Assembly: GCA_000830295.1 (NCBI GenBank)
Contig: CP010425.1
Coordinates: forward strand, 689,308-753,307
Direction of reading: 5' to 3'
DNA: 64,000 nt
Source of the DNA: an archaeon GW2011_AR15
GTDB taxonomy: Archaea; Nanobdellota; Nanobdellia; Woesearchaeales; GW2011-AR15
The notes beneath the pieces are model-generated. The model saw only the letters and a program-made list of their open reading frames with translations. It was not told the DNA's origin and ran no database searches. Positions 7,812-22,909 of this stretch are shown here, piece by piece. A program made the translations under genes and the position numbers. Position 1 is the first letter of the stretch; every line of letters starts with the position of its first letter.

Positions 7812-9563
7812 ATGGTAAAGAGAATTGCTGTTATTGACAATAACAAGCTCAAGGATATGGAGAAGAAGAAGCATATCCAGAGCCTGTGCCCTGTCAACAG
7901 GAAAGGGGACGAATGCATGTACTTTGACGGTCCGAAGCTTCTGATAGATGAAGCCCTGTGCATAGGCTGCGGGATATGCGTTAATGCAGCTCCTGAGGCA
8001 ATAAAGGTCATCAATCTTCCTGAGGCGCTTGAAAAAGACCCTATACACAGGTATGGGGAGAACCAGTTTGCCCTCTACAACCTGCCCATTCCTGTTTTCG
8101 GGAAAGTAACAGGAGTATTGGGAGTTAACGGCATAGGGAAGAGTACAGCAATAAAGATACTTGCAGGGGTGCTCAAGCCCAATCTCGGGAACATCGGCAT
8201 GGAGGCGGATATCAGGGACATAATCTCATATTTCAAGGGCTCAGAAGCCCAGCTTTATTTTGAGAAAGTAAGGAAAGGGGAGATAAGGACAGCCTACAAG
8301 CCGCAGCACGTCGACATGATTCCGAAGCAGTTTTCAGGCAAAGTCAGAGAGCTATTGGAGAAGGTTGATGAAAAAAAGCAGCTGAAAGGAATTGCTGAGA
8401 AATTCGAGCTCAATAAGATACTTGAAAGGGAAGTCAGGCATATTTCAGGCGGGGAGCTGCAGAGGGTTGCTATTGCAGCAACATTCCTCAAGAAAGCCAA
8501 CCTCTATATTTTCGACGAGATAACCTCATACCTTGACATAAAGCAGCGCATCAAGGTGGCAGGCCATATCAGGGAGCTCGCAGACGAGCATACAGCAGTT
8601 ATTGTAATTGAGCACGACCTCATTGCGCTCGACTACATGGCAGACATGATAAACATAATGTACGGCAGCAAGGGAGTTTTCGGCGTTGTCTCCCAGCTGA
8701 GGCCCACAAAAAATGCAATAAACACTTTCCTTGAGGGCTACCTGAAAGAAGAGAATGTCAGGTTCAGGGATTATAAGATAAAATTCCAGGTAAGGAAGCC
8801 GTTCGGCGCAGTTGAGACAGCAACCCTTGTAAGCTGGCCGGACATGGAAAAAAAGCTCGGTGATTTCACGCTTAGGGCAGAGGCGGGTGAAATCAACACC
8901 TATGAGAAAGTAGGGGTGCTGGGAGAGAACGGAATAGGAAAGACAAGTTTTGTAAGGATATTGTCAGGCGAGATGAGGCCTGACGGGAAAGAGCTTGATA
9001 TGAAAGTAAAAGTATCCTACAAGCCCCAGTACCTTGAATCAGGTTCAGATGAGCTGGTCATGGTTGTATTGAAGGATGCAGTCTCCAAATATGAGACAGA
9101 GCTTATCAGGCCGCTGGAAATAAAGCCCCTCTTATTAAAAAAAATAAAAGAGCTTTCAGGCGGGGAACTGCAGAGGGTTGCTATTGCACTTTGCCTGTCA
9201 AGGGATGCAGACCTGCTGCTTCTTGACGAGCCCTCAGCATATCTTGATGTTGAGCAGAGGCTGAATGTCTCAAAAGTCATTTCAAATGTAGTAGAGCAGA
9301 GGAAAATATCTGCGCTTGTTGTTGACCACGACCTGTTGTTCCTGGATTACCTCTCAGACAGGCTGCTTGTTTTTGAGGGAGAGCCTGCTGTAAAGGGCAT
9401 TGCAAAAGGGCCTTTCCAGATGGAGCAGGGTATGAACAGCCTTCTTAAGCATCTTGACATTACAATGAGAAGGGACGAGGCATCATCCAGGCCAAGGATA
9501 AACAAGCTTGAATCTGTGAAAGACAGGGAGCAGAAGGGCAAGGGCAAATATTACTATGCGTAA
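7812..9563 (+). CDS. ABCE1 ribosome-recycling ATPase with one Fe-S cluster apparently lost
   Basis: A 583-residue twin-ATPase of the ABCE1/Rli1 family, which splits ribosomes after termination. First ATPase: Walker A GVNGIGKST, signature SGGELQR, Walker B LYIFDE. Second: GENGIGKTS, SGGELQR, LLLLDE. The N-terminal ferredoxin-like domain normally has eight Cys for two [4Fe-4S] clusters. Aligned without gaps to typical homologues, Cys is kept at 26, 50, 53 and 56 but replaced at 13 (Leu), 18 (Lys), 22 (Ile) and 60 (Ala). In a ferredoxin cross-ligation pattern these are exactly the four ligands of one cluster. Leaderless start with TTTAAATA upstream. Confidence 0.95.
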   Translation: MVKRIAVIDNNKLKDMEKKKHIQSLCPVNRKGDECMYFDGPKLLIDEALCIGCGICVNAAPEAIKVINLPEALEKDPIHRYGENQFALYNLPIPVFGKVTGVLGVNGIGKSTAIKILAGVLKPNLGNIGMEADIRDIISYFKGSEAQLYFEKVRKGEIRTAYKPQHVDMIPKQFSGKVRELLEKVDEKKQLKGIAEKFELNKILEREVRHISGGELQRVAIAATFLKKANLYIFDEITSYLDIKQRIKVAGHIRELADEHTAVIVIEHDLIALDYMADMINIMYGSKGVFGVVSQLRPTKNAINTFLEGYLKEENVRFRDYKIKFQVRKPFGAVETATLVSWPDMEKKLGDFTLRAEAGEINTYEKVGVLGENGIGKTSFVRILSGEMRPDGKELDMKVKVSYKPQYLESGSDELVMVVLKDAVSKYETELIRPLEIKPLLLKKIKELSGGELQRVAIALCLSRDADLLLLDEPSAYLDVEQRLNVSKVISNVVEQRKISALVVDHDLLFLDYLSDRLLVFEGEPAVKGIAKGPFQMEQGMNSLLKHLDITMRRDEASSRPRINKLESVKDREQKGKGKYYYA

Positions 9564-10197
9564 ACTCTTACTTGCAGCAGCGGCAATACTTGTTTTCTTC
9601 ATCATACTTTTTTCATCCTTGTTTTCCTACATCTACAACACCAATTACTACGACAGAAAATATCAGCAGCATGGTGTCTATGACCGGTTCACAAGGAAAA
9701 CTGCACTAAATGCAACTGGAAACCTATTCGGATATTTCAGGTCAGAGAACCAGCTTGACATGGATTTTTTCAGTGAACAGGAGGCAAGCCACCTCAGCGA
9801 TGTAAAGCAGCTGATACAGAAAAGCCAGCAGCTCTATTATATCAGCATAACCCTGTTCTGGATAGCCCTGGTTGCCGTGTACCTGCTCGCCAGGAAAAGC
9901 TTTATGAGATTCTTTGCAGACATGATGCTTTATTCCGGCATATTTGCTGCCGCCTTGATTTTAATCTTTTCTCTCATATACTTAGTGGGCGGATTTGATT
10001 TCATCTTCATAAAGTTCCACGAAATATTTTTCACAGGCAACTATGCATTCAACCCGGCTACAAGCAACATGAAAGCATTATTTCCAGATGCTTTTTTCAG
10101 GGATTTGAGTTTAACGATTGTTTTTGTAACCTTCCTGAAGGCAGGATTGCTGGCAGGAGCGGGTTATTTTTTAAGAACTAGACAACTTCGCCTGTAA
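9556..10197 (+). CDS. DUF1461-like integral membrane protein
   Basis: A 213-residue protein with an N-terminal membrane helix, a polar external loop, and three more helices. The sequence KFHEIFFTGNYAFNP near 150-165 matches the hallmark of the DUF1461/TIGR01906 family (Phe-His-x-x-Phe-Phe...Trp/Tyr-x-Phe), found in Firmicutes and archaea with no known function. It overlaps the ABCE1 gene by 8 bases, so the two are probably cotranscribed, and overlaps the convergent radical SAM gene by 20 bases. Confidence 0.8.
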   Translation: MRKLLLAAAAILVFFIILFSSLFSYIYNTNYYDRKYQQHGVYDRFTRKTALNATGNLFGYFRSENQLDMDFFSEQEASHLSDVKQLIQKSQQLYYISITLFWIALVAVYLLARKSFMRFFADMMLYSGIFAAALILIFSLIYLVGGFDFIFIKFHEIFFTGNYAFNPATSNMKALFPDAFFRDLSLTIVFVTFLKAGLLAGAGYFLRTRQLRL

Positions 10198-13205: not shown

Positions 13206-13382
13206 ATGTGTATCTTATGCATGGGTTCAGTCTGCACTAATGTGGGGTTGTGCCAGCCGGTCATATACAGCTATTTCAGCACCCTGCAGTATTTCATTGC
13301 CCTTGGGATTGGGGCCGCTATTGGCATAACTTACAAGGCAAGAGATAAAATAAAGAATTTTTTCAGGGGATTAAGAAGATAA
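13206..13382 (+). CDS. Cys-containing single-span membrane microprotein
   Basis: A 58-residue open frame: MCILCMGSVCTNVGLC, then a hydrophobic helix (YFIALGIGAAIGITYKA) and a basic tail (KIKNFFRGLRR), a topology consistent with a bona fide small membrane protein. Four Cys in the first 16 residues may bind metal. A TATA-like TTTATATAG (about 13170-13178) lies 30 bases upstream. An internal ATG at 13221 is an alternative start. It overlaps the end of convergent lysJ by 12 bases. No family recognised. Confidence 0.5.
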   Translation: MCILCMGSVCTNVGLCQPVIYSYFSTLQYFIALGIGAAIGITYKARDKIKNFFRGLRR

Positions 13383-14540
13383 AACATCCCTGACTATCTT
13401 CACAACCTCATCAACATCCTTCTTTGTAAATATCAATGGTGGAAGGAACCTCAGCACTGTCGTACCTGTAGGAATTATTATGACGCCTTTGTCCTGCAGG
13501 TCTTTTGCGTATTTTGTGTTCTTTGTTTTCAGCTCTACTGCAATCATCAGCCCCAGGCCGCGGACTTCCCTTATTACAGGAGATTCAATTGTTCTCAGCT
13601 GTTCTATGAAATATTTGCCCACAGAAGCAGCATTCTCCAGTATCCTGTGCTTTTCAATATAGTCAAACGTTGCAAGCGACGCAGCGCATACAAGAGGGTT
13701 GCCCCCAAAAGTGTTTGTATGGGCTCCTGAAAATAATTTTGAGGAGATTTCCTCTGTTATCAGCACTGCTCCCATCGGAAGGCCGGAGGCGATTCCCTTT
13801 GCCATGCATATCATGTCAGGCTCTACATTGAAATGCTCTATTGCAAACAGTTTTCCTGTCCTTCCCATTCCTGACTGTATCTCGTCAATAACAAGCAGGG
13901 CATTGTTCTGTTCGCAGAGCTTTTTCACCTTTACAAAGAAATCTTTGCCAGGAATCCTGATTCCGCCCTCTCCCTGTATGGGCTCGAGGAAAACAGCTGC
14001 AGTCTTTTCGCTTATAACTTCTTTTAATGAATCAATATCATTGAATGAGAAGTGCTTAACATCCTGAAGCAGGGGCTCATAGGGCTCATTGTATTTTTTC
14101 AGGGTGCTTGTCAGGCTCAGTGCTCCGATTGTCTTTCCGTGGTAGCCCATCTTTGCAGCAATGATCTCAGTCTTTCCTGTTGCCAGCCTTGAGAACTTTA
14201 TGGCAGCCTCGACAGATTCAGTTCCCGTGTTGCTGAAAAAGACTTTTGTAAGATTCTTAGGAGAGACTTCAATTAATTTCTTGGCTATGAGCGACCTCTT
14301 GTCATTTGTAAAAGAGCCATGCAGGTTTGTTATTCTTTCAAGCTGCTCTGCAACCGCCCTGTTTATCTCAGGGATATTATGCCCGAGTATGTTGACTCCC
14401 ATGTTTGAGAAGCAGTCATAATATTTTTTCCCTGTTTCGTCATATACATAGATTCCTTTTCCCTTTACTATTGTCAGTCCCCTGCTTCCGTAAGTTGGGG
14501 CAATGTATTTTCCTGCCATTTCCTCATAATCCATTTTCAA
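13371..14540 (-). CDS. lysJ: [LysW]-aminoadipate semialdehyde aminotransferase
   Basis: A 389-residue class III PLP aminotransferase. It uses glutamate to aminate the carrier-bound semialdehyde, giving [LysW]-lysine. The fold is complete: NTGTESVEAAIK, GYHGKT, LEPIQGEGG, DEIQSGMGRTGK and the PLP lysine in MAKGIASGLP. ArgD (acetylornithine aminotransferase) is the close relative; the LysW-pathway neighbours decide the name, although a double role in arginine synthesis cannot be excluded. Last gene of the operon, overlapping lysZ by 17 bases. Confidence 0.92.
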   Translation of the reverse strand: MKMDYEEMAGKYIAPTYGSRGLTIVKGKGIYVYDETGKKYYDCFSNMGVNILGHNIPEINRAVAEQLERITNLHGSFTNDKRSLIAKKLIEVSPKNLTKVFFSNTGTESVEAAIKFSRLATGKTEIIAAKMGYHGKTIGALSLTSTLKKYNEPYEPLLQDVKHFSFNDIDSLKEVISEKTAAVFLEPIQGEGGIRIPGKDFFVKVKKLCEQNNALLVIDEIQSGMGRTGKLFAIEHFNVEPDMICMAKGIASGLPMGAVLITEEISSKLFSGAHTNTFGGNPLVCAASLATFDYIEKHRILENAASVGKYFIEQLRTIESPVIREVRGLGLMIAVELKTKNTKYAKDLQDKGVIIIPTGTTVLRFLPPLIFTKKDVDEVVKIVRDVLSS

Positions 14541-15327
14541 TCACAGTTCCTTTTCCTTCTAATGCATCTTTAACAGGATGCTCTGTCCTGCCGTCTGAAA
14601 TCAAAACCCTGCATTTTCCTGATTCAAACAGCTTCCTCAGGCTAAGCATCTTTCTTTTCATCCTGTCATCAACCTGCGCTTCCCTTTCTTTAAGCTCATC
14701 AGCAGACATTTTCTTCACCAATGATTTCGGGTCATCCCTGTTTTCCAAAAAGCCGGGGGCTTCTATTAATTGTATGACAGTATCTGCTTTCATAGTGTCC
14801 TTCAGCACATTTACTATGTCATCATTCTCTGAGTTTATGGCAAAATTATTCTCGTCAATTATTGGTATGCATAAGACCGGGGTATAGCCGTTTTCCAGCA
14901 GCAGGTCCAATAGCTCTTTGTTTATCTCCTTTGGCTTGCCGGAGAAATCCCTTACAATTTTCTGCTTTGAGCCTTCTTTTATCCTTATGCCTGTGTTTCT
15001 TTTTCCCCTTATCAGCCTGCCGTCAATCCCTGAAAGCCCGACAGCATTGACTCCGTGCTGCTGGAATATCTCAACAATCCTCTTGTTTCTTAAGCCTGAG
15101 TAAGCCATCATTATGCTGTCAATTGCACCCCCATCTGAATAGACACTGGAATATCCAGAAACAGACTTAAGCACTTTCTTTTCTTTTCCAAGCTCTTTCA
15201 TCAGCTGATCGCGGTGGTAATTGGCGCCGTGGACAACAATGACCTTTTCTTTAAGTCCTGCAATATCTTCTGCAACTCCATCTACATTAATGTCCTTCCC
15301 TCCGCCGATTTTTATTATCATAACCAT
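14524..15327 (-). CDS. lysZ: [LysW]-aminoadipate kinase
   Basis: A 267-residue amino-acid kinase that phosphorylates the delta-carboxyl of alpha-aminoadipate while it is tethered to LysW. The N-terminus has IIKIGGGKDI, with the catalytic Lys and Gly-rich loop; VHGANYHRDQLMKELG is the substrate region; IDENNFAINSENDDIV near 185 fits the nucleotide-binding part. Length agrees with LysZ/ArgB. ATG at 15327 or 15321 are both possible. It follows the amidotransferase-like gene by 3 bases in one operon. Confidence 0.92.
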   Translation of the reverse strand: MVMIIKIGGGKDINVDGVAEDIAGLKEKVIVVHGANYHRDQLMKELGKEKKVLKSVSGYSSVYSDGGAIDSIMMAYSGLRNKRIVEIFQQHGVNAVGLSGIDGRLIRGKRNTGIRIKEGSKQKIVRDFSGKPKEINKELLDLLLENGYTPVLCIPIIDENNFAINSENDDIVNVLKDTMKADTVIQLIEAPGFLENRDDPKSLVKKMSADELKEREAQVDDRMKRKMLSLRKLFESGKCRVLISDGRTEHPVKDALEGKGTVIENGL

Positions 15328-15330
15328 TTT

Positions 15331-15969
15331 CTACCACACCAGTATTGCATTATTCGGCACATTGCTCCAGTCAGTCTCTCCGGGATACGGGTCTGAGCAC
15401 ACGAGCAGGTCATGGCCTGTTTCCTTGTAGTGCATTGTGTAATACTCCTTGTCTTCCTCGAATGTCGTGTTCAGGTAGACATTCTCTTTTGTTGCGACAA
15501 TTATATTCATGCCCCTTATGTGCCTGCTCTTCTTCTTTATCAGGGAGACGCCCTTTACAAATGCCTGGATTGTATCGCCGTTGTCAAACCTTTTGAAGAA
15601 GTTGAAAATCTTCTCAGCGCCTATCCTCCCTTCCTCTTTTATCCTCACTCCCTGCAGCTCTCCGTTGAATATGAAAACATACTTCGGGTCGTGGAAAGGC
15701 ATGTTGTTTTCTATGAAAATCCCCTCGTCCTTGAAAGCGCTCCTTGCATGGGCTACAAGCATCTTTGTCTTCCCGAACTGCGAGAGGTCATCTTTCCAGA
15801 CAGGGTTGATGTTCTTGTAGTGCTTCCATTCATTTTTTTCATCAAGGTATGAGCAGCCCCAGCCGTGCCCCTGGTATTCTTTGCTGTTTTTTGAAATGGC
15901 TGCGAAATTCTTAAGATGGGTCTCAATATCAAACACATTCTCTGATTTCACTAAAAGCAATCTGCACAT
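15331..15969 (-). CDS. Class II amidotransferase-like Ntn hydrolase inside the lysine operon (candidate LysK substitute)
   Basis: A 212-residue protein beginning Met-Cys-Arg-Leu; Cys2 would become the N-terminal nucleophile after Met removal. Other class II glutaminase features are present: AHARSAF (gamma-glutamyl binding Arg), FNGEL (oxyanion Asn-Gly), and SDPYPGETDWSNVP near the C-terminus, which matches the GlxB/YafJ/EgtC subgroup. No synthase domain is attached. ATG at 15969 follows GAGG. It lies between lysZ and lysY with 3- and 10-base gaps. LysK, which normally frees lysine from LysW, is absent from the cluster. EgtC relatives cleave gamma-glutamyl amides, the same bond type as LysW-lysine, so this protein may release lysine (inference). 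Confidence 0.88.
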   Translation of the reverse strand: MCRLLLVKSENVFDIETHLKNFAAISKNSKEYQGHGWGCSYLDEKNEWKHYKNINPVWKDDLSQFGKTKMLVAHARSAFKDEGIFIENNMPFHDPKYVFIFNGELQGVRIKEEGRIGAEKIFNFFKRFDNGDTIQAFVKGVSLIKKKSRHIRGMNIIVATKENVYLNTTFEEDKEYYTMHYKETGHDLLVCSDPYPGETDWSNVPNNAILVW

Positions 15970-15979
15970 TTCAGCCTCT

Positions 15980-17017
15980 TTATACAGGATGCAATCCAGG
16001 GAATTCAAGCCCTGCTGTCTCAGGGAGCCCGAACATTATATTCATGCACTGGACTGCCTGGCCTGCTGCCCCTTTCATCAGGTTGTCTATCGCGCTCATG
16101 ACAACCAGCCTGTTGGAGCCTTCATCAATCTCAAAACCTATGTCGCAGTAATTTGTCCCCCAGAGTATTTTTGGCTCAGGATACCTGTAGATACCTGTCT
16201 TTTCCTTTACAATCCTTATGAAAGGCTCATCTCCGTATTCCTTCCTGTAAATCTTCCAGATGTCCTTGTCCTGCAGCTTTTCTTTCAGGAAGACATGGCC
16301 TGTCATCAGGATTCCCCTCACTAAGTCTGTGCTTGTTGCGCTGAATCCGAAATATCCGGTGTTAAGCTCCTGCATTATCTCGGCCATGTGCCTGTGGCCT
16401 GTCGGCCTGTAGCTTCTAAGCACGTCTTTTCTTTCAGGGTGGTGGCTTCCGGGATTCTCCTTATTGCCTGCTTCAGATGAGCCGCCTTTTACCTCGACAA
16501 CTGTTTTTGCTGCATCAATTAAATTATTCTTGTATAACGGGTAAAGTCCGAGTATTGTTGCAGTCGCATTGCATCCTGCGGCAGCCACATAATCTGCTTT
16601 CTTTATCTCTTCCCTGTGAAGCTCAGGGATTCCGTATACAAATTTCTTCAAAAGCTCTGGCCTGGGATGGTCAAACTCATACCATTTTTTGTAATCCTCT
16701 TTATTCCTCAGCCTGAAATCGCTTCCCTTGTCAATGACTTTCTTTGCCTTTGACATTATGAAGTCTATTCTCTCAGAGCTTACCTTGTGAGGAAGCCCTA
16801 CAAATATTACGTCAACATTTTCAAGCTCTTTCATGCTGCTGAATTTCAGCATTGTCTTTCCCCTTAAATTGGGATGGACCTGATGCACGAACTTTCCTGC
16901 ATTGCTTTCTGATGTTGCCTGCACTACCTCGACATTCGGATGTCCAAGCAAAAGGCGAAGTGCCTCTCCGCCCACATATCCGGACGCTCCTACAATTGAT
17001 GCCTTAATCTTTTCCAT
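15980..17017 (-). CDS. lysY: [LysW]-aminoadipate 6-phosphate reductase
   Basis: A 345-residue NAD(P)H-dependent reductase of the ArgC/LysY family that converts the carrier-bound acyl phosphate to the semialdehyde. The N-terminal Rossmann motif is GASGYVGGEALRLLLGHP; the catalytic Cys lies in AAGCNATATI near 150, with the LysY-type Asn-Ala-Thr rather than the classical ArgC Tyr-Pro-Thr. KGGSSEAGNKENPGSHHPER is a conserved substrate region. It overlaps lysX by 14 bases. Confidence 0.94.
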   Translation of the reverse strand: MEKIKASIVGASGYVGGEALRLLLGHPNVEVVQATSESNAGKFVHQVHPNLRGKTMLKFSSMKELENVDVIFVGLPHKVSSERIDFIMSKAKKVIDKGSDFRLRNKEDYKKWYEFDHPRPELLKKFVYGIPELHREEIKKADYVAAAGCNATATILGLYPLYKNNLIDAAKTVVEVKGGSSEAGNKENPGSHHPERKDVLRSYRPTGHRHMAEIMQELNTGYFGFSATSTDLVRGILMTGHVFLKEKLQDKDIWKIYRKEYGDEPFIRIVKEKTGIYRYPEPKILWGTNYCDIGFEIDEGSNRLVVMSAIDNLMKGAAGQAVQCMNIMFGLPETAGLEFPGLHPV

Positions 17018-17852
17018 TCTTTGCCACCTTCAAAACATAATCAATCATCTTCTCTGGAATATTGACTCCGGTAGCTGTAATTGAATTCCTGAATTCCATT
17101 GTGTGGTTTACTTCATTTACAACCAAGCCTTTCTTTGTCTCAAAAAGGTCAATCGCAAGTATCCCTCCTCCGACTGCCTTTGCTGCCTTCCTGCATATCT
17201 CATCAAGCTCTTTTGTAACAGGGCAGTTGCTTGCTTTTCCCCCTCTTGCTGTGTTGGTTATCCAGTGCTCTGAGCTCCTGTAGATTGCGCAGATTGTTTT
17301 TCCGTCAACAACAAAAGCCCTTATATCCCTGCCCGGCTTTTCCACATATTCCTGTATGTAGAATACTGAATGCTGGACTCCGCCAAGCACTTTCTTGTGC
17401 TCTATCACGGCCTCTGCTGAGTGCCTGTCTGTTATCTTTGAGACAAGCCTTGCCCAGCTTCCGACAACCGGCTTTATCACGCATGGGTAGCCCATCTTCT
17501 CAACTGCCTCAAGCGCAGTCTCAGGGGTGAATGCCATAATTACTTTTGGAGTCGGAATCTTGTTCTCTGTTAGTATCCTGCTGGTTACAAACTTGTCCCC
17601 GCAGTTTTCTGAAACAGCACTCCTGTTCACAACAGGAATCCCGTAGCCTTCAAAAATTTTTGAGATGTATAGTCCCCTGCTGTAGGATACGGACCTTTCA
17701 AGTAAGACATCTATCTTAAAATTGTTTTTTGAAATGTCAAAAAATTCCGAGCCGTCATCTATCTTGACAACTTCCACATTTCTTTTTCTCAGCTCCTGAA
17801 GAAGCAATTTTTCTTCTGGCCTTATTATTGAGTAAAGGAATCCTACTTTCAT
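17004..17852 (-). CDS. lysX: LysW-alpha-aminoadipate ligase
   Basis: A 282-residue ATP-grasp enzyme (RimK-like) that joins alpha-aminoadipate to the C-terminal glutamate of LysW. Seen: VIKPVVGSWARLVSKI (ATP-binding loop), YIQEYVEKPGRDIRAFVV, and NEVNHTMEFRNS with the Mg-binding residues near the C-terminus. It may also accept glutamate for arginine synthesis as some archaeal homologues do; the sequence alone does not settle this. Overlaps the dehydrogenase by 4 bases. Confidence 0.94.
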   Translation of the reverse strand: MKVGFLYSIIRPEEKLLLQELRKRNVEVVKIDDGSEFFDISKNNFKIDVLLERSVSYSRGLYISKIFEGYGIPVVNRSAVSENCGDKFVTSRILTENKIPTPKVIMAFTPETALEAVEKMGYPCVIKPVVGSWARLVSKITDRHSAEAVIEHKKVLGGVQHSVFYIQEYVEKPGRDIRAFVVDGKTICAIYRSSEHWITNTARGGKASNCPVTKELDEICRKAAKAVGGGILAIDLFETKKGLVVNEVNHTMEFRNSITATGVNIPEKMIDYVLKVAKNGKD

Positions 17853-18850
17853 TTTATCCTCCGTGCGACTGCATCGCCTGCCTGCTCTGTTGTCAGCTTT
17901 CCTCCTAAATCCTGTGTTACATCCCCTTCTTCAATTGCTGACATCACAGCATCCCCGACTTTTTTGGCTGCTTCATCTTCTCCCAAAAATTCAAGCATCA
18001 GCTTTGCAGCCAGTATTGCTGCAGCCGGGTTTGCTACATTCTTTCCTGCATATTTAGGCGCAGAGCCATGAACAGGCTCAAAAACTGCCTTTTCTTTTCC
18101 TATATTTCCAGAGTATGCCAGCCCCAACCCTCCGACGAGCATTGATGCCTCGTCGCTCAAAATATCCCCGAACATGTTGGTTGTCACAATGATTTCAAAC
18201 TGGCCGGGGTTTTTTATGAGCTGCATTGCGCAGGCATCCACAAGCATCTCCTGCATCTCAATAGCCGGATATTCTTTGGCTATCTCCAGGGCAACTTTCC
18301 TGAACAGCCCGCATGTCTCCCTCAGCACATTTGCCTTGTGGACAACAGTGACTTTCCTGAGGTTTTTTTCTCTGGCAAGCTCAAACGCATACCTGATAAT
18401 CCTTTCACTTCCCTTTCTTGTGATGATCATCTCTGTTACTGCTTTGTTGCCGTTATCCTCTACACGCTCAACTCCTGAATAAAGGTCCTCTGTGTTCTCT
18501 CTGACAATATACATGCTTATCCCCTTCTGCGAAATCTCATGCGGGAAGGACCTGCACGGCCTCAGGTTGGCGTAGAGGTCAAAGTGTTGCCTCAGCCTTA
18601 AAATTGCTGAGGAGTAATTTTCGATATTCGGCGGGGTTGTCACAGCTCCGAACAGCGTTGCGTCTGCCTTCTCAACTTTCTTGATTGTTTCTTCAGGCAG
18701 GGCATCGCCTTTTTTCAGGTAGCAGCCGTATCCTATTTCCCCGTAGGTGAATTCAAGCTCAAGAGGCAGGGCTTTCAGTACCTTTACTGCCTGCTCAACA
18801 ACTTCAGGCCCTATTCCGTCTCCCGGCAGAACGCAGATTCTGTATTTCAT
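17849..18850 (-). CDS. Homoisocitrate dehydrogenase
   Basis: A 333-residue beta-decarboxylating dehydrogenase. It oxidises homoisocitrate to 2-oxoadipate. Seen: LPGDGIGPEV at the N-terminus, LRLRQHFDLYANLRP (substrate arginines), VRENTEDLYSGVE, the metal aspartates in NMFGDILSDEASMLVGGLG and the NAD site EPVHGSAPKYAGKNVANP. The family also includes 3-isopropylmalate and isocitrate dehydrogenases; operon context favours homoisocitrate. Bifunctional use is possible. Confidence 0.9.
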   Translation of the reverse strand: MKYRICVLPGDGIGPEVVEQAVKVLKALPLELEFTYGEIGYGCYLKKGDALPEETIKKVEKADATLFGAVTTPPNIENYSSAILRLRQHFDLYANLRPCRSFPHEISQKGISMYIVRENTEDLYSGVERVEDNGNKAVTEMIITRKGSERIIRYAFELAREKNLRKVTVVHKANVLRETCGLFRKVALEIAKEYPAIEMQEMLVDACAMQLIKNPGQFEIIVTTNMFGDILSDEASMLVGGLGLAYSGNIGKEKAVFEPVHGSAPKYAGKNVANPAAAILAAKLMLEFLGEDEAAKKVGDAVMSAIEEGDVTQDLGGKLTTEQAGDAVARRIK

Positions 18851-19338
18851 TGCAGCTCCTCTATATTGTGGCTCTTCAGGAAATTCACAATGCCTCCTGC
18901 GTTCACTATCTTCAGCACGAATTCAGGAAGCGGCTTTGCCTGGAATTCTTTCCCGTTTGTTATGTTTCTTATTATCCCTGTTTCAAGATTGACATCAAAC
19001 TCATCCCCTTCTTGAACATCATCATAGACATCGCATTCAAGTATTGGCAGGCCTATGTTGATGGCATTCCTGAAAAATATCCTTGCATATGATTTTGCGA
19101 TTATGCACTTTGCCCCAGAGCCCTTTATTGCAATGGGCGCGTGCTCCCTTGATGAGCCGCAGCCGAAATTATCCCCTGCAACAATCACATCTCCCGGGTT
19201 TACAGTCTTTGCATAATCCGGCTTTACCTCGCAGAACACATTTTTTGCCAGCTCTTTTTCGTCTATTGTGATGTTGTATCTCGCAGGTATGATTACATCA
19301 GTGTTCACGTTGTGCCCGAATTTCCAGACTTTGCCCAT
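18847..19338 (-). CDS. Homoaconitase small subunit
   Basis: A 163-residue swivel-domain subunit of the two-subunit aconitase family (LysU/LeuD). It closes over the substrate bound at the large subunit Fe-S cluster. GDNFGCGSSREHAPIAI and AKSYARIFFRNAINIG are family hallmarks. The substrate-specificity loop reads PARYNIT, unlike the YLRT loop known in methanogen homoaconitase or YLVY in isopropylmalate isomerase, so specificity rests on operon context. Overlaps the dehydrogenase by 4 bases. Confidence 0.9.
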   Translation of the reverse strand: MGKVWKFGHNVNTDVIIPARYNITIDEKELAKNVFCEVKPDYAKTVNPGDVIVAGDNFGCGSSREHAPIAIKGSGAKCIIAKSYARIFFRNAINIGLPILECDVYDDVQEGDEFDVNLETGIIRNITNGKEFQAKPLPEFVLKIVNAGGIVNFLKSHNIEELQ

Positions 19339-19339
19339 T

Positions 19340-20593
19340 TTATGCCCTCATGTATTTCCTTGGATCAGTTATCTTTCCTTCTATTGCCGTTGCAGCAGCT
19401 GCAGCAGGGCTTCCCAGATATATCTCAGCCTCTGCGCTTCCCATCCTGCCCACGAAATTCCTGTTCATTGTTGTGAATGCCTTTTCTCCCGGCGCCAATA
19501 ATCCTGCGTGCCTGCCGATGCATGCCCCGCACCCGGTTACTCCGATTGTGACGCCGGCATCCTGCAGGATTTTTACAAGCCCTTTGTCTATCATTTTCTG
19601 CAGCACATTCCTGCTTGCAGGATTTACCAGTACCCTTGTGAACCTGCTGACTTTCTTTCCTTTGATTATGTCTGCAAATATCTCGATGTCCTCATACCTC
19701 CCGTTTGTGCATGTTCCGAGGAAAACCTCATCAATCGGAAGCCCCTCGACATCCTTCAGAGGCCTTGCATTATCAACATCGGGATGGCATGCAACCTGGG
19801 GCTCTATCTCATCAACATTGATTTCTATCTCCCTCTCGTACCTTGGGTTTACAGGCACTATTTTTTCAAACGGTCCTTCTGCCTTTGTCTCATTCTCCAG
19901 GAATTTTATTGTTGTGTCGTCTACCGCTATCAGCCCGCATTTTGCCCCGATTTCAGTTGACATGTTCGGGAAGATTATCCTTTCGTGCATAGGCAGCCTG
20001 TCAATGTATTCCCCTGAAAACTCAACGCTCTTGTATGTTGCGCCGTCCATCCCAAGCTTTCCGGCAACGTAGATCATGACATCCTTTGCATAGCTGCCCG
20101 GCAGGTTTTTTCCTGTCAGCTTTATGTGTATTGTCTCAGGGACCCTGAACCATGTCTTCCCTGATATCCATGCCACTCCGATCTCTGTTGAGCCGAAGCC
20201 GACCCCGAAGCAGCCGAAAGCCCCGTAGGTATTGCTGTGGCTGTCTCCTCCGATGATGATTTTCCCAGGAGTCACGAAGCCCTCTTCAATCATGACCTGG
20301 TGGCAGATTCCCTGGTGGTAGAAATTCTTTATACTCTGCTCTTTCATGAAATCAACTATTTTCTTCTGGGTCTCGGCAGCCAGCACATTTGGGGCAGGAT
20401 ATGCATGGTCAAAATGGATGACAACCCTGTCCTTGTCCATGATCGGCTTCCCTATATCCCTGAACGCCTTTATTGCCAATGGTGAGGTGTTGTCATGCGT
20501 CATCATGTAATCTACATCTACCATGACTATCTCGCCTGCCTTTACAGGCCTTCCGAGCTTCCTTGAAAAAATTTCTTCTACAAGCGTTCCCAT
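19340..20593 (-). CDS. Homoaconitase large subunit
   Basis: A 417-residue [4Fe-4S] hydro-lyase that isomerises homocitrate to homoisocitrate. Cluster ligands are in FLGTCTNGRYED and TGCGACIGRHAG; GGDSHSNTYGAFG and DHAYPAPN are also typical. Homologous to the LeuC/LysT group; the one-base gap to the small subunit and the homocitrate synthase next door support the homoaconitase call. Confidence 0.92.
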   Translation of the reverse strand: MGTLVEEIFSRKLGRPVKAGEIVMVDVDYMMTHDNTSPLAIKAFRDIGKPIMDKDRVVIHFDHAYPAPNVLAAETQKKIVDFMKEQSIKNFYHQGICHQVMIEEGFVTPGKIIIGGDSHSNTYGAFGCFGVGFGSTEIGVAWISGKTWFRVPETIHIKLTGKNLPGSYAKDVMIYVAGKLGMDGATYKSVEFSGEYIDRLPMHERIIFPNMSTEIGAKCGLIAVDDTTIKFLENETKAEGPFEKIVPVNPRYEREIEINVDEIEPQVACHPDVDNARPLKDVEGLPIDEVFLGTCTNGRYEDIEIFADIIKGKKVSRFTRVLVNPASRNVLQKMIDKGLVKILQDAGVTIGVTGCGACIGRHAGLLAPGEKAFTTMNRNFVGRMGSAEAEIYLGSPAAAAATAIEGKITDPRKYMRA

Positions 20594-20594
20594 T

Positions 20595-21983
20595 TTATCC
20601 CTTTCCGTTTATGCCGTTATGCTTTTTCAGAACTATCTTTGTGCTGGTCTGCTTTATCCCAGGTATTGTCCTGAGCTCCTCTAGAAGGTTGTTGAGCTCC
20701 GCAGTGCTGATTACCTCGGCGTAGGCAGAGATATCATGCTCTCCTGTAATCTCAAAGACGCTCTGTATGTACTTGAAATTCTTTAAGTGCCTGACAACAG
20801 AAGTCGTATACACATCTGTCTCGACCGATATCAGGATAAGCGCATTTATGTTTTTTGGTATCACTTCATTTGTCTTGCCTGTTACTCTTTCAGCTATCTC
20901 GAGTATGTCTGAATCATGGAGAATCTTCCTCTCGTCCCCGATATGCTTTATTTCCGCTACAATAAGCTTCAGCTCGTCATCGCTTACTTTTATGCTGTAG
21001 TCGTCAAGCTTTGACTGCACTGCCCTTTTTCCTGTGTACTTGTCAACAATGATTTTCCTTTCCCTTCCTATCAGTGCAGGGTCGAATGCCTCGTATGTCT
21101 TCGGGTTCTTCAGGACCCCGTCAGTGTGCACTCCAGACTTGTGCGAGAATGCGTTCTGGCCTGTTATAGGCTTGTTGGGAGCTATGAAAAACCCTGAAAC
21201 TTTTTCCACATATGATGACAGCCCCGGGAGATACCTGATTTTGTATCTTGTTTTTTTCTCAAGTATGTGATACGACATTATGACTTCTGAAATATCAGGA
21301 ACGCCTGTCCTTTCACCGAGCCCGTTCACGGTCACGTGGATGCAGTTTGCCCCTGCCCTTATCCCTGCCATTGCGTTTGCCAATGCCAGCCCAAAATCAT
21401 TGTGGCAGTGGACATCCAGCTCGCAAGGGAACAAGGAATCCTTAAGCTCCTTCACCTGGTTGTAAAATAAATGCGGCTGCATTATCCCGAGAGTGTCTGC
21501 AACGCTTATCCTGTCAGCTCCTGCCTTTATTGCAGTGTTGCATGCTTTTGCAAGGAAATTTAATTCTGTCCTTGTAGCATCCTCAGGCGTGAACCTGACC
21601 TTCATGCCTTTTTTTCTTGCATAGGCGACATGCTCTTTTATTATCTGCAGAGCTTCTTTTCTTGTCTTTTTTACTTTTGTCTGCAGGTGGATATCTGAGG
21701 TCGGGTATAATATCACTATCCTGTCAACCCCGCATTCCTTTGCCTTGTCAATGCCTGCTTTTGTTGCAAGCGAATGCGCCAGTATCTCAGCCTTCAGGCC
21801 AAGGGAAGCTATCTTTTTTATTGCCTCATAGACTTTCGGGGAGACGCAGGGGTCGCCCGCCTCTATCATGTCCACCCCGATTTTATCGAGAAGCCTGGCT
21901 ATCTCTACTTTTTCATCAACTGTAAAATTTACGTACGGGGTCTGCTCCCCGTCCCTTAAAGTAGTATCAAGAATCCTGAGCAT
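20595..21983 (-). CDS. Homocitrate synthase with C-terminal RAM/Lrp-like domain
   Basis: A 462-residue enzyme joining acetyl-CoA to 2-oxoglutarate, the first step to alpha-aminoadipate. The TIM barrel begins LDTTLRDGEQTPYVNFT; metal His are in DVHCHNDFGLALANA. Residues about 370-455 (LILISVETDVYTTSVVRHL...) form an Lrp/AsnC-type RAM domain, longer than Thermus homocitrate synthase. A similar fusion is known in Sulfolobales and is thought to bind lysine for feedback inhibition. The 2-isopropylmalate and citramalate synthases are relatives, but they have a different C-terminal domain. Confidence 0.92.
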   Translation of the reverse strand: MLRILDTTLRDGEQTPYVNFTVDEKVEIARLLDKIGVDMIEAGDPCVSPKVYEAIKKIASLGLKAEILAHSLATKAGIDKAKECGVDRIVILYPTSDIHLQTKVKKTRKEALQIIKEHVAYARKKGMKVRFTPEDATRTELNFLAKACNTAIKAGADRISVADTLGIMQPHLFYNQVKELKDSLFPCELDVHCHNDFGLALANAMAGIRAGANCIHVTVNGLGERTGVPDISEVIMSYHILEKKTRYKIRYLPGLSSYVEKVSGFFIAPNKPITGQNAFSHKSGVHTDGVLKNPKTYEAFDPALIGRERKIIVDKYTGKRAVQSKLDDYSIKVSDDELKLIVAEIKHIGDERKILHDSDILEIAERVTGKTNEVIPKNINALILISVETDVYTTSVVRHLKNFKYIQSVFEITGEHDISAYAEVISTAELNNLLEELRTIPGIKQTSTKIVLKKHNGINGKG

Positions 21984-22148
21984 CTACTCTCCCCAGTCTT
22001 CCTCTTCCTCGGGTGCAAGAACAAGCGCAACAGGATCAACAGATGCCACCTCTAAATCTGCTCCGCAGTCAGGGCAGGTAAGTATCTCCCCTTCTTCAAC
22101 ATCACTCGCGGTCTGCACATCTGCACCGCACTCAATACATTCAGCCAT
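21984..22148 (-). CDS. lysW: LysW amino-group carrier protein
   Basis: A 54-residue acidic carrier. Zinc ribbon Cys pairs CIEC and CPDC are followed by an acidic globular part and the diagnostic C-terminus EEEEDWGE, whose last Glu gamma-carboxyl is linked to the amino group of alpha-aminoadipate. ATG at 22148 follows GGAGGGAG; an upstream in-frame start at 22178 is rejected since it would precede this site. First gene of the operon; stop is TAG and homocitrate synthase starts directly after it. Confidence 0.96.
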   Translation of the reverse strand: MAECIECGADVQTASDVEEGEILTCPDCGADLEVASVDPVALVLAPEEEEDWGE

Positions 22149-22246
22149 TTTTACATTCTCCCTCCTATGTTTTTTCATATCGAAACATTTATATAATATA
22201 TTAACATGTTGTTATAAAATTAACATATTTCAAGGAGGAAAGTTAT
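22149..22246. promoter_or_regulatory. Divergent promoter with repeated ATTAACAT sites
   Basis: The region between lysW and the ACT-domain gene holds an AT-rich TATA-like core (ATTTATATAATATATTAA, about 22187-22204) that can serve both directions. ATTAACAT occurs at 22200-22207 and 22219-22226, 19 bases apart (two helical turns), and the first copy overlaps the palindrome AACATGTT. These are plausible operators for the neighbouring regulator. AAGGAGGA at 22232-22239 serves the plus-strand gene. Confidence 0.5.
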
Positions 22247-22909
22247 ATGAATATTTCATACATGACGAAGAAAATACTGCAGGAGAGGCCGTTTATCCAT
22301 GAGGCCCTTGAGAAAGATCTGGTCAATGTGGTTGCCCTGGCCGAGCTCATAAAGCCGGATATAGAGAAGGAGATCGGGGAAGTAAAGACTTCTGCAATCT
22401 CCATGGCAATAAGGAGATACATGGAAAAGGAGAAGAGCGCATTCTACAATAAGGTTACTTTAACCAAAAAGTCTGATCTGCTGATAAAGTCTAATCTGTT
22501 TGAGCTGTCTGTGCTGAAATCAGCCGCCATATATAAAAAACTGATACAGCTCTACAACATAGTCAATTTTGATGTGGGCGACACGCTGAATATAATACAC
22601 GGCAATTATGAGATACTTATTGTGAGCAATGACAAGTACAAGGAGAAATTCCTTGAAGTCCTGCACGAGGAGAGCGTGAAATCAGTCAAGGAGAACATGG
22701 CTTCGATTTCAATCAAGATCCCCAAGGAATTCATTGACAAGCCGGGGTTCTATTATGCCATTGCGAAAATCCTTACAATGCAGAACATCTCAATTGCCGA
22801 CATAGTCAACACAGAGACAGAAGCCACATTCGTGGTTGAGGACCGCTTTGTTTCCAAAGCCTACAATGCGCTGAAGCAGGAGATGAGCGTGGAGTATTAT
22901 AAGAAATGA
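22247..22909 (+). CDS. ACT-domain protein, probable lysine-operon regulator
   Basis: A 220-residue protein. The N-terminal 65 residues are helical and charged (SAISMAIRRYMEKEK), suggesting a helix-turn-helix-like or dimerisation part; the C-terminal half contains an aspartokinase-like ACT segment (FYYAIAKILTMQNISIADIVN) usual in amino-acid-sensing proteins. It is transcribed divergently from the lysine operon across a shared promoter with repeated sites. Function as a lysine-responsive regulator is inference; the DNA-binding mode is not clear from sequence. Confidence 0.7.
   Translation: MNISYMTKKILQERPFIHEALEKDLVNVVALAELIKPDIEKEIGEVKTSAISMAIRRYMEKEKSAFYNKVTLTKKSDLLIKSNLFELSVLKSAAIYKKLIQLYNIVNFDVGDTLNIIHGNYEILIVSNDKYKEKFLEVLHEESVKSVKENMASISIKIPKEFIDKPGFYYAIAKILTMQNISIADIVNTETEATFVVEDRFVSKAYNALKQEMSVEYYKK

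Follow-up and report, generated by a model that had tools for sequence, protein, structure and literature searches.

A candidate cysteine amidase for the release of lysine from LysW in the archaeon GW2011_AR15

The lysine operon and its Ntn gene

The window, i.e., the whole stretch of 64,000 nucleotides that was analysed, contains an operon for lysine synthesis on the carrier protein LysW (Table 1), in which the genes are ordered as lysW, homocitrate synthase, lysT, lysU, homoisocitrate dehydrogenase (HICDH), lysX, lysY, an N-terminal-nucleophile (Ntn) gene, lysZ, and lysJ. The operon is tightly packed, with intergenic gaps of -17 to 10 bases, and the Ntn gene, which begins with ATG and encodes 212 residues (MCRLL...SDPYPGETDWSNVPNNAILVW), is found 10 bases past lysY and 3 bases ahead of lysZ. 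After a gap of 106 bases, the operon is followed by a gene for a ZIP metal transporter and not by lysK.

Table 1. Features of the lysine operon and of the gene divergent from it, with positions in the window
Feature	Position	Strand	Evidence or remarks
lysW, carrier protein with EDWGE terminus, proposed substrate	21984..22178	-	TIGR01206, 59.9 bits (cut-off 53.2)
Homocitrate synthase (lysS) with C-terminal Lrp/AsnC ligand-binding domain	20595..21983	-	TIGR02146, 427 bits, above cut-off
lysT, homoaconitase large subunit	19340..20593	-	Inferred from translation and operon context
lysU, homoaconitase small subunit	18847..19338	-	Inferred from translation and operon context
Homoisocitrate dehydrogenase (HICDH)	17849..18850	-	TIGR02088, above cut-off; AksF close
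lysX, LysW-aminoadipate ligase	17004..17852	-	TIGR02144, 361.8 bits (cut-off 275.6)
lysY, reductase (ArgC family)	15980..17017	-	TIGR01850, 404 bits
EgtC-like amidohydrolase of the Ntn type, proposed as [LysW]-lysine hydrolase	15331..15969	-	Predicted Cys2 nucleophile, Arg76, Asn102-Gly103 oxyanion hole, Gly117
lysZ, [LysW]-aminoadipate kinase	14524..15327	-	NF010659, 247.6 bits (cut-off 223)
lysJ, aminotransferase, ends the operon without a following lysK	13371..14540	-	TIGR00707, above cut-off; NF042418 (LysJ), 409 bits, below its cut-off
ACT-like-domain protein, divergent from lysW	22247..22909	+	Weak match, below cut-off

The C-terminal domain of the homocitrate synthase resembles the lysine regulator LysM, and may sense lysine; the long form of this enzyme (~460 aa) is also present in the genomes G005, G006, and G137, and forms of ~380 aa are found elsewhere. 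Relatives of the ACT-like protein are located near lysW at many Woesearchaeal loci (in G002, G006, G009, G121, G179, G247, and G271), and also at the locus L102, and this protein is a candidate lysine regulator.

The source genome is a single contig of 1.16 Mb, 96.8% complete, and a search of the whole genome, which was restricted to the M20 family, returned no M20 peptidase with the threshold relaxed to E <= 10, having been positive in 14 of 14 control genomes, so that the genome has no lysK. The preliminary description had noted that LysK was missing from the operon, and had named a lysK elsewhere in the genome as a finding that would refute its proposal; the former observation holds, with lysJ as the last gene, and the latter objection failed. 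Given that the LysW operon is complete and that the genome has no match to diaminopimelate (DAP) decarboxylase (LysA) at 1e-20, the LysW route is probably the way in which this archaeon obtains lysine, and the last step of this route is here without a known enzyme.

One other organism with such a gap is Caldithrix abyssi, for which the genome paper places LysWXZYJ together with Hcs at a single locus (Cabys_3146-3153) without naming a LysK, and according to which the synthesis of lysine needs further investigation and may involve non-orthologous gene displacement (PMC5317091).

Conservation of the neighbourhood and alternation with LysK

Orthologues of the Ntn protein, 49-62% identical to it, are spread over at least eight phyla. 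When 60 close genomes were searched with the single protein, two orthologues (63% and 55% identical) were found directly upstream of lysZ, both of which are split from lysY by foreign genes that differ between them, one being 2-hydroxyacid-dehydrogenase-like and the other Fic-like. A wide scan of 84,980 species genomes, from which 80 loci of 123 relatives were retrieved, found the protein in Woesearchaeota, Desulfobacterota/Thermodesulfobacteriota, Ignavibacteriota and Bacteroidota, Calditrichota, KSB1, Binatota, Pseudomonadota, Planctomycetota, and SAR324. A LysW-pathway gene adjoins the Ntn gene in 79 of the 80 loci and, given that these relatives were retrieved independently, its placement in the lysine operon is not due to chance. 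In 77 of the 80, from at least eight phyla, lysZ follows directly, and the flanks of these loci showed no LysK-like gene.

This conservation bears on the possibility that the protein is merely co-transcribed with the lysine genes and acts on a small molecule, as an ordinary glutaminase or gamma-glutamyl amide hydrolase. Such a role would agree with EgtC being the nearest curated family, and with relatives in the same archaeal family that are paired with a GCS2 gamma-glutamyl ligase, but it is very unlikely, in that the gene stays beside those of the LysW pathway across at least eight phyla, and free ammonia is used by no known step of the operon. A glutaminase that supplies ammonia to LysJ was also considered and rejected, given that LysJ is a PLP aminotransferase and that the Asp for free glutamine has been lost.

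A few loci depart from the usual arrangement and count against the proposed release of lysine from LysW. For example, G394 has an orphan Ntn gene of the lysine type (locus L133, 10001-10639; 53% identical) in surroundings that lack lys genes, and a LysW was not found in this genome either, while G353, a single chromosome record, retains Ntn-lysZ-lysJ in an operon from which lysW, lysX, and lysY are absent. At the locus L072, an unrelated open reading frame with a 20-residue LysY-like piece (8914-9870) lies upstream of Ntn-lysZ-lysJ, at the place expected for lysWXY, and this operon is likely decaying.

Pairs in which a GCS2-like gamma-glutamyl ligase is accompanied by an EgtC-like amidase (loci L015, L016, L017, L019, L020, L219, L220, and L221) are common in two Woesearchaeal families, and point to an unknown gamma-glutamyl metabolite.

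The alternation with LysK was followed in 353 genomes of the order, among which LysW is rare and each operon was read. Eight operons (G000, G005, G009, G121, G137, G179, G235, and G247) have the Ntn gene without LysK, and when the whole order was searched with a profile, the lysine-type Ntn came up at E < 1e-70 in those eight genomes only. In a ninth genome, G180, which has lysY-lysZ-lysJ, the usual place of LysK directly after lysJ is taken by a diverged Ntn with 34% identity to the window protein, and this genome has no LysK. In G006, G225, and G271, an M20 gene after lysJ exceeds the cut-off for [LysW]-lysine hydrolase, with no Ntn gene in the operon; in G006 and in G225 the LysK gene opens another contig, which would be expected if the assembly had cut the operon. 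A fourth LysK genome, G007, has lysJ-lysK, and LysW was not found in it.

The totals for the order are nine genomes with the Ntn gene only, four with LysK only, and none with both (Fisher p = 0.0014, with kinship left uncorrected); neither gene was seen in G002, where a contig end cuts the operon. The exclusivity within the order rests on four LysK operons, and most of the genomes are metagenome-assembled (MAGs). Outside the order, none of 50 further Ntn genomes has a LysK over the cut-off of 363 bits (NF003367), the best M20 match being 120 bits, against 372-412 bits for the four real LysKs. In a sample of the phylum of G393, LysW exceeds its cut-off in 14 of 198 genomes, and the eight newly read operons comprise seven with Ntn, none with LysK, and one cut by a contig end. 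A Deinococcus plasmid has the classical order ending in lysJ-lysK, without Ntn, and a scan of viral contigs found no LysK. The question of whether clusters with the Ntn gene consistently lack LysK is thus answered in the affirmative, the two being mutually exclusive and never found in one operon here.

This exclusion is not predicted if the protein edits mischarged LysW (e.g., LysW-glutamate) and lysine is freed by some unrecognised hydrolase. Editing would cut the same bond, and some operons have two or three LysX copies, which could mischarge LysW, but a LysK-like gene was not seen in the Ntn operons, and hardly any credence is given to this role.

The labels LysK and Ntn change five times on the LysY tree, at least three of these on well-supported branches, which means that the two types interchange repeatedly. 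On the other hand, the LysZ tree clusters largely by hydrolase type, with 2 changes (as few in 6 of 500 shuffles), and lysZ and the Ntn gene therefore seem to travel together. Independent pairs numbered only 3, which is too few to be compared formally.

The predicted active site and the carrier terminus

Pfam and NCBIfam searches of the Ntn protein returned class II amidotransferase and EgtC matches only, with no M20 domain, and the sole NCBIfam match is EgtC (TIGR03442; E 7e-15, 55 bits against a cut-off of 218.65). This model matches 62 of 62 members of the family (best E 1.3e-17); egtB and egtD are not at the locus, the neighbours being lysine-operon genes, and no curated NCBIfam model describing the family was found. 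The AlphaFold2 model of the protein (pLDDT 94.6, pTM 0.91) has as its nearest solved folds the EgtC crystal structures (PDB 4zfj, 4zfk, 4zfl), with TM mostly 0.81-0.84.

Among the 62 members, with non-ATG start codons treated as Met, M1, C2, R3, H74, R76, N102, G103, G117, and E119 are invariant. In a MAFFT alignment of the Ntn family with the GlmS- and AsnB-like proteins of the genome, other relatives, and E. coli GlmS, the equivalents of GlmS C1, R73, N98, and G99 are present in every one of the 68 Ntn proteins, all of which thus have the marks of the Ntn fold, i.e., an N-terminal Cys after Met, a catalytic Arg, and an Asn-Gly oxyanion motif. The preliminary description had reported a 212-residue protein with class II glutaminase features between lysY and lysZ, and gene position, predicted fold, and active-site residues bear this out, as the length of 212 aa does for the lack of a synthase domain.

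The position of GlmS D123, by contrast, is Gly in 68 of 68 Ntn proteins and Asp in every relative compared; a profile-profile alignment independently puts the same Gly on the invariant Asp of the relatives, and a helix starts at residue 117 in the AlphaFold2 model. GlmS Asp123 is taken here to bind the alpha-amino group of glutamine, and no literature on this contact was found among open PMC papers. A class II amidotransferase with free glutamine as its donor would have this Asp, which is missing here together with a synthase domain, and its loss also counts against a small-molecule substrate. Given that the amino group of the LysW Glu is tied up in a peptide bond, the loss fits a protein-bound Glu; judged from the alignments, the change from Asp to Gly would suit a peptide-linked glutamate, with Arg76 presumably kept for its free carboxylate.

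The last Glu of LysW carries the substrate, and the change of this Glu to Ala in the ArgW of Natrinema results in arginine auxotrophy (PMC10433800). In the Ntn genomes, LysW ends in EDWGE, as in the window, or in EDWGQ, the terminal residue being Glu in 54 and Gln in 13 of 67 Ntn loci, with at least 11 switches between the two on the Ntn tree. LysW of the LysK type is Glu-ended in all six copies from five loci, and so are the solved LysW structures of Thermus, Thermococcus, and Sulfolobus; the LysW of G225 ends in EDFGE. A plasmid search gave seven LysW records only, and no further LysW above the cut-off came from extending the search to the archaeal phylum. With only about nine LysK-type ends, the contrast in terminal Gln is not significant (Fisher), and the argument from Gln therefore rests on the repeated switches. 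At the locus L014 (G009), there are three lysX, two lysW that are both Gln-ended, and a Fic-like gene between lysY and Ntn.

A Gln-ended LysW should not be loadable by LysX unless the amide is removed. Pup provides a parallel, in that Dop not only deamidates PupQ but takes Pup off as well (PMC8599861), and, by analogy, an enzyme that cuts the gamma-amide of LysW would make Glu and Gln ends interchangeable. The Gln-ended loci and the precedent of Dop would also be compatible with a maturation deamidase only, which would convert Gln to Glu before loading by LysX and leave the release of lysine to an unknown enzyme. This narrower role is unlikely, given that the 54 Glu-ended loci, including the window, have no need of it and yet keep the gene, and that it leaves the missing LysK unexplained and does not predict the exclusion.

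Proposed reaction and comparison with known systems

The proposal of the preliminary description, that the Ntn protein replaces LysK, is supported, on genomic evidence only, by the absence of LysK, the exclusion, the Gln-ended LysW, and the loss of Asp. A probability of about 0.85 is attached to the Ntn gene encoding a second, non-homologous [LysW]-lysine hydrolase, whose substrate, chemistry, product, and activity are inferred. In this archaeon and in many bacteria, lysine is thus most likely released from LysW by a cysteine amidase unrelated to LysK; no paper naming this function was found among open PMC papers on LysW with glutamine amidotransferase or EgtC.

In the proposed reaction, the removal of Met1 would leave Cys2 as the N-terminal nucleophile, which would attack the gamma-carbonyl of the C-terminal Glu of LysW, held by Arg76 at its free alpha-carboxylate and by the Asn102-Gly103 oxyanion hole. 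Lysine would leave, and the hydrolysis of the thioester by water would regenerate LysW-Glu, while Gly117, in place of the Asp that grips the alpha-amino group in the relatives, may provide room for the LysW chain. By this chemistry, a LysW encoded with a terminal Gln would likewise be deamidated.

The window operon has the whole aminoadipate branch, from which the product is inferred to be lysine. LysA is over the cut-off in 17 of 23 bacterial Ntn genomes searched, and homocitrate synthase is absent from several bacterial Ntn operons; given this, ornithine or some other amino acid may be what is released in those bacteria in which the DAP route is present as well. A broader reading, held at little better than even odds, is that an unnamed family of cysteine amidases, from archaea and at least seven bacterial phyla, is Dop-like in its action on LysW, both activating the Gln-ended form and releasing the amino acid, with LysW pathways existing in two interchangeable forms and with ornithine or an unknown product possibly released in bacteria with the DAP route.

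If the hydrolase assignment is true, it would fill the reported LysK gap in the LysW pathway, as in Caldithrix abyssi, and correct predictions of lysine auxotrophy for many uncultured lineages. It would also provide a case of a hydrolase replaced repeatedly by an unrelated enzyme, and of a carrier protein with Gln/Glu alternation, as in Pup.

Of the systems already described, EgtC (gamma-glutamyl hercynylcysteine sulfoxide amidohydrolase, TIGR03442) has the same stand-alone Ntn fold with an N-terminal Cys, and hydrolyses a gamma-glutamyl amide, the bond type proposed here, but the window protein is only about 16% identical to it, lies in a lysine operon and not among egt genes, and has Gly in place of the alpha-amino Asp of GlmS and nearer relatives. 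In the same archaea, the EgtC-like proteins encoded next to GCS2 ligases show 22-27% identity to the window protein and share its Cys, Arg, Asn, and Gly, but keep the Asp, lack the GRIGAEKIF motif, and form a separate clade outside the lys operons. LysK ([LysW]-lysine hydrolase, NF003367) has the reaction and the place in the pathway that are proposed for the Ntn protein, but is an M20 metallopeptidase of unrelated fold, which relies on metal chemistry instead of a Cys nucleophile. Finally, Dop, the deamidase and depupylase of Pup, resembles the proposed enzyme in that its tag ends in Gln or Glu and that one enzyme both deamidates it and cuts a gamma-linked amide (PMC8599861), but it has a glutamine-synthetase-like fold and uses an ATP-derived phosphate, so that the comparison is one of working principle and not of homology.
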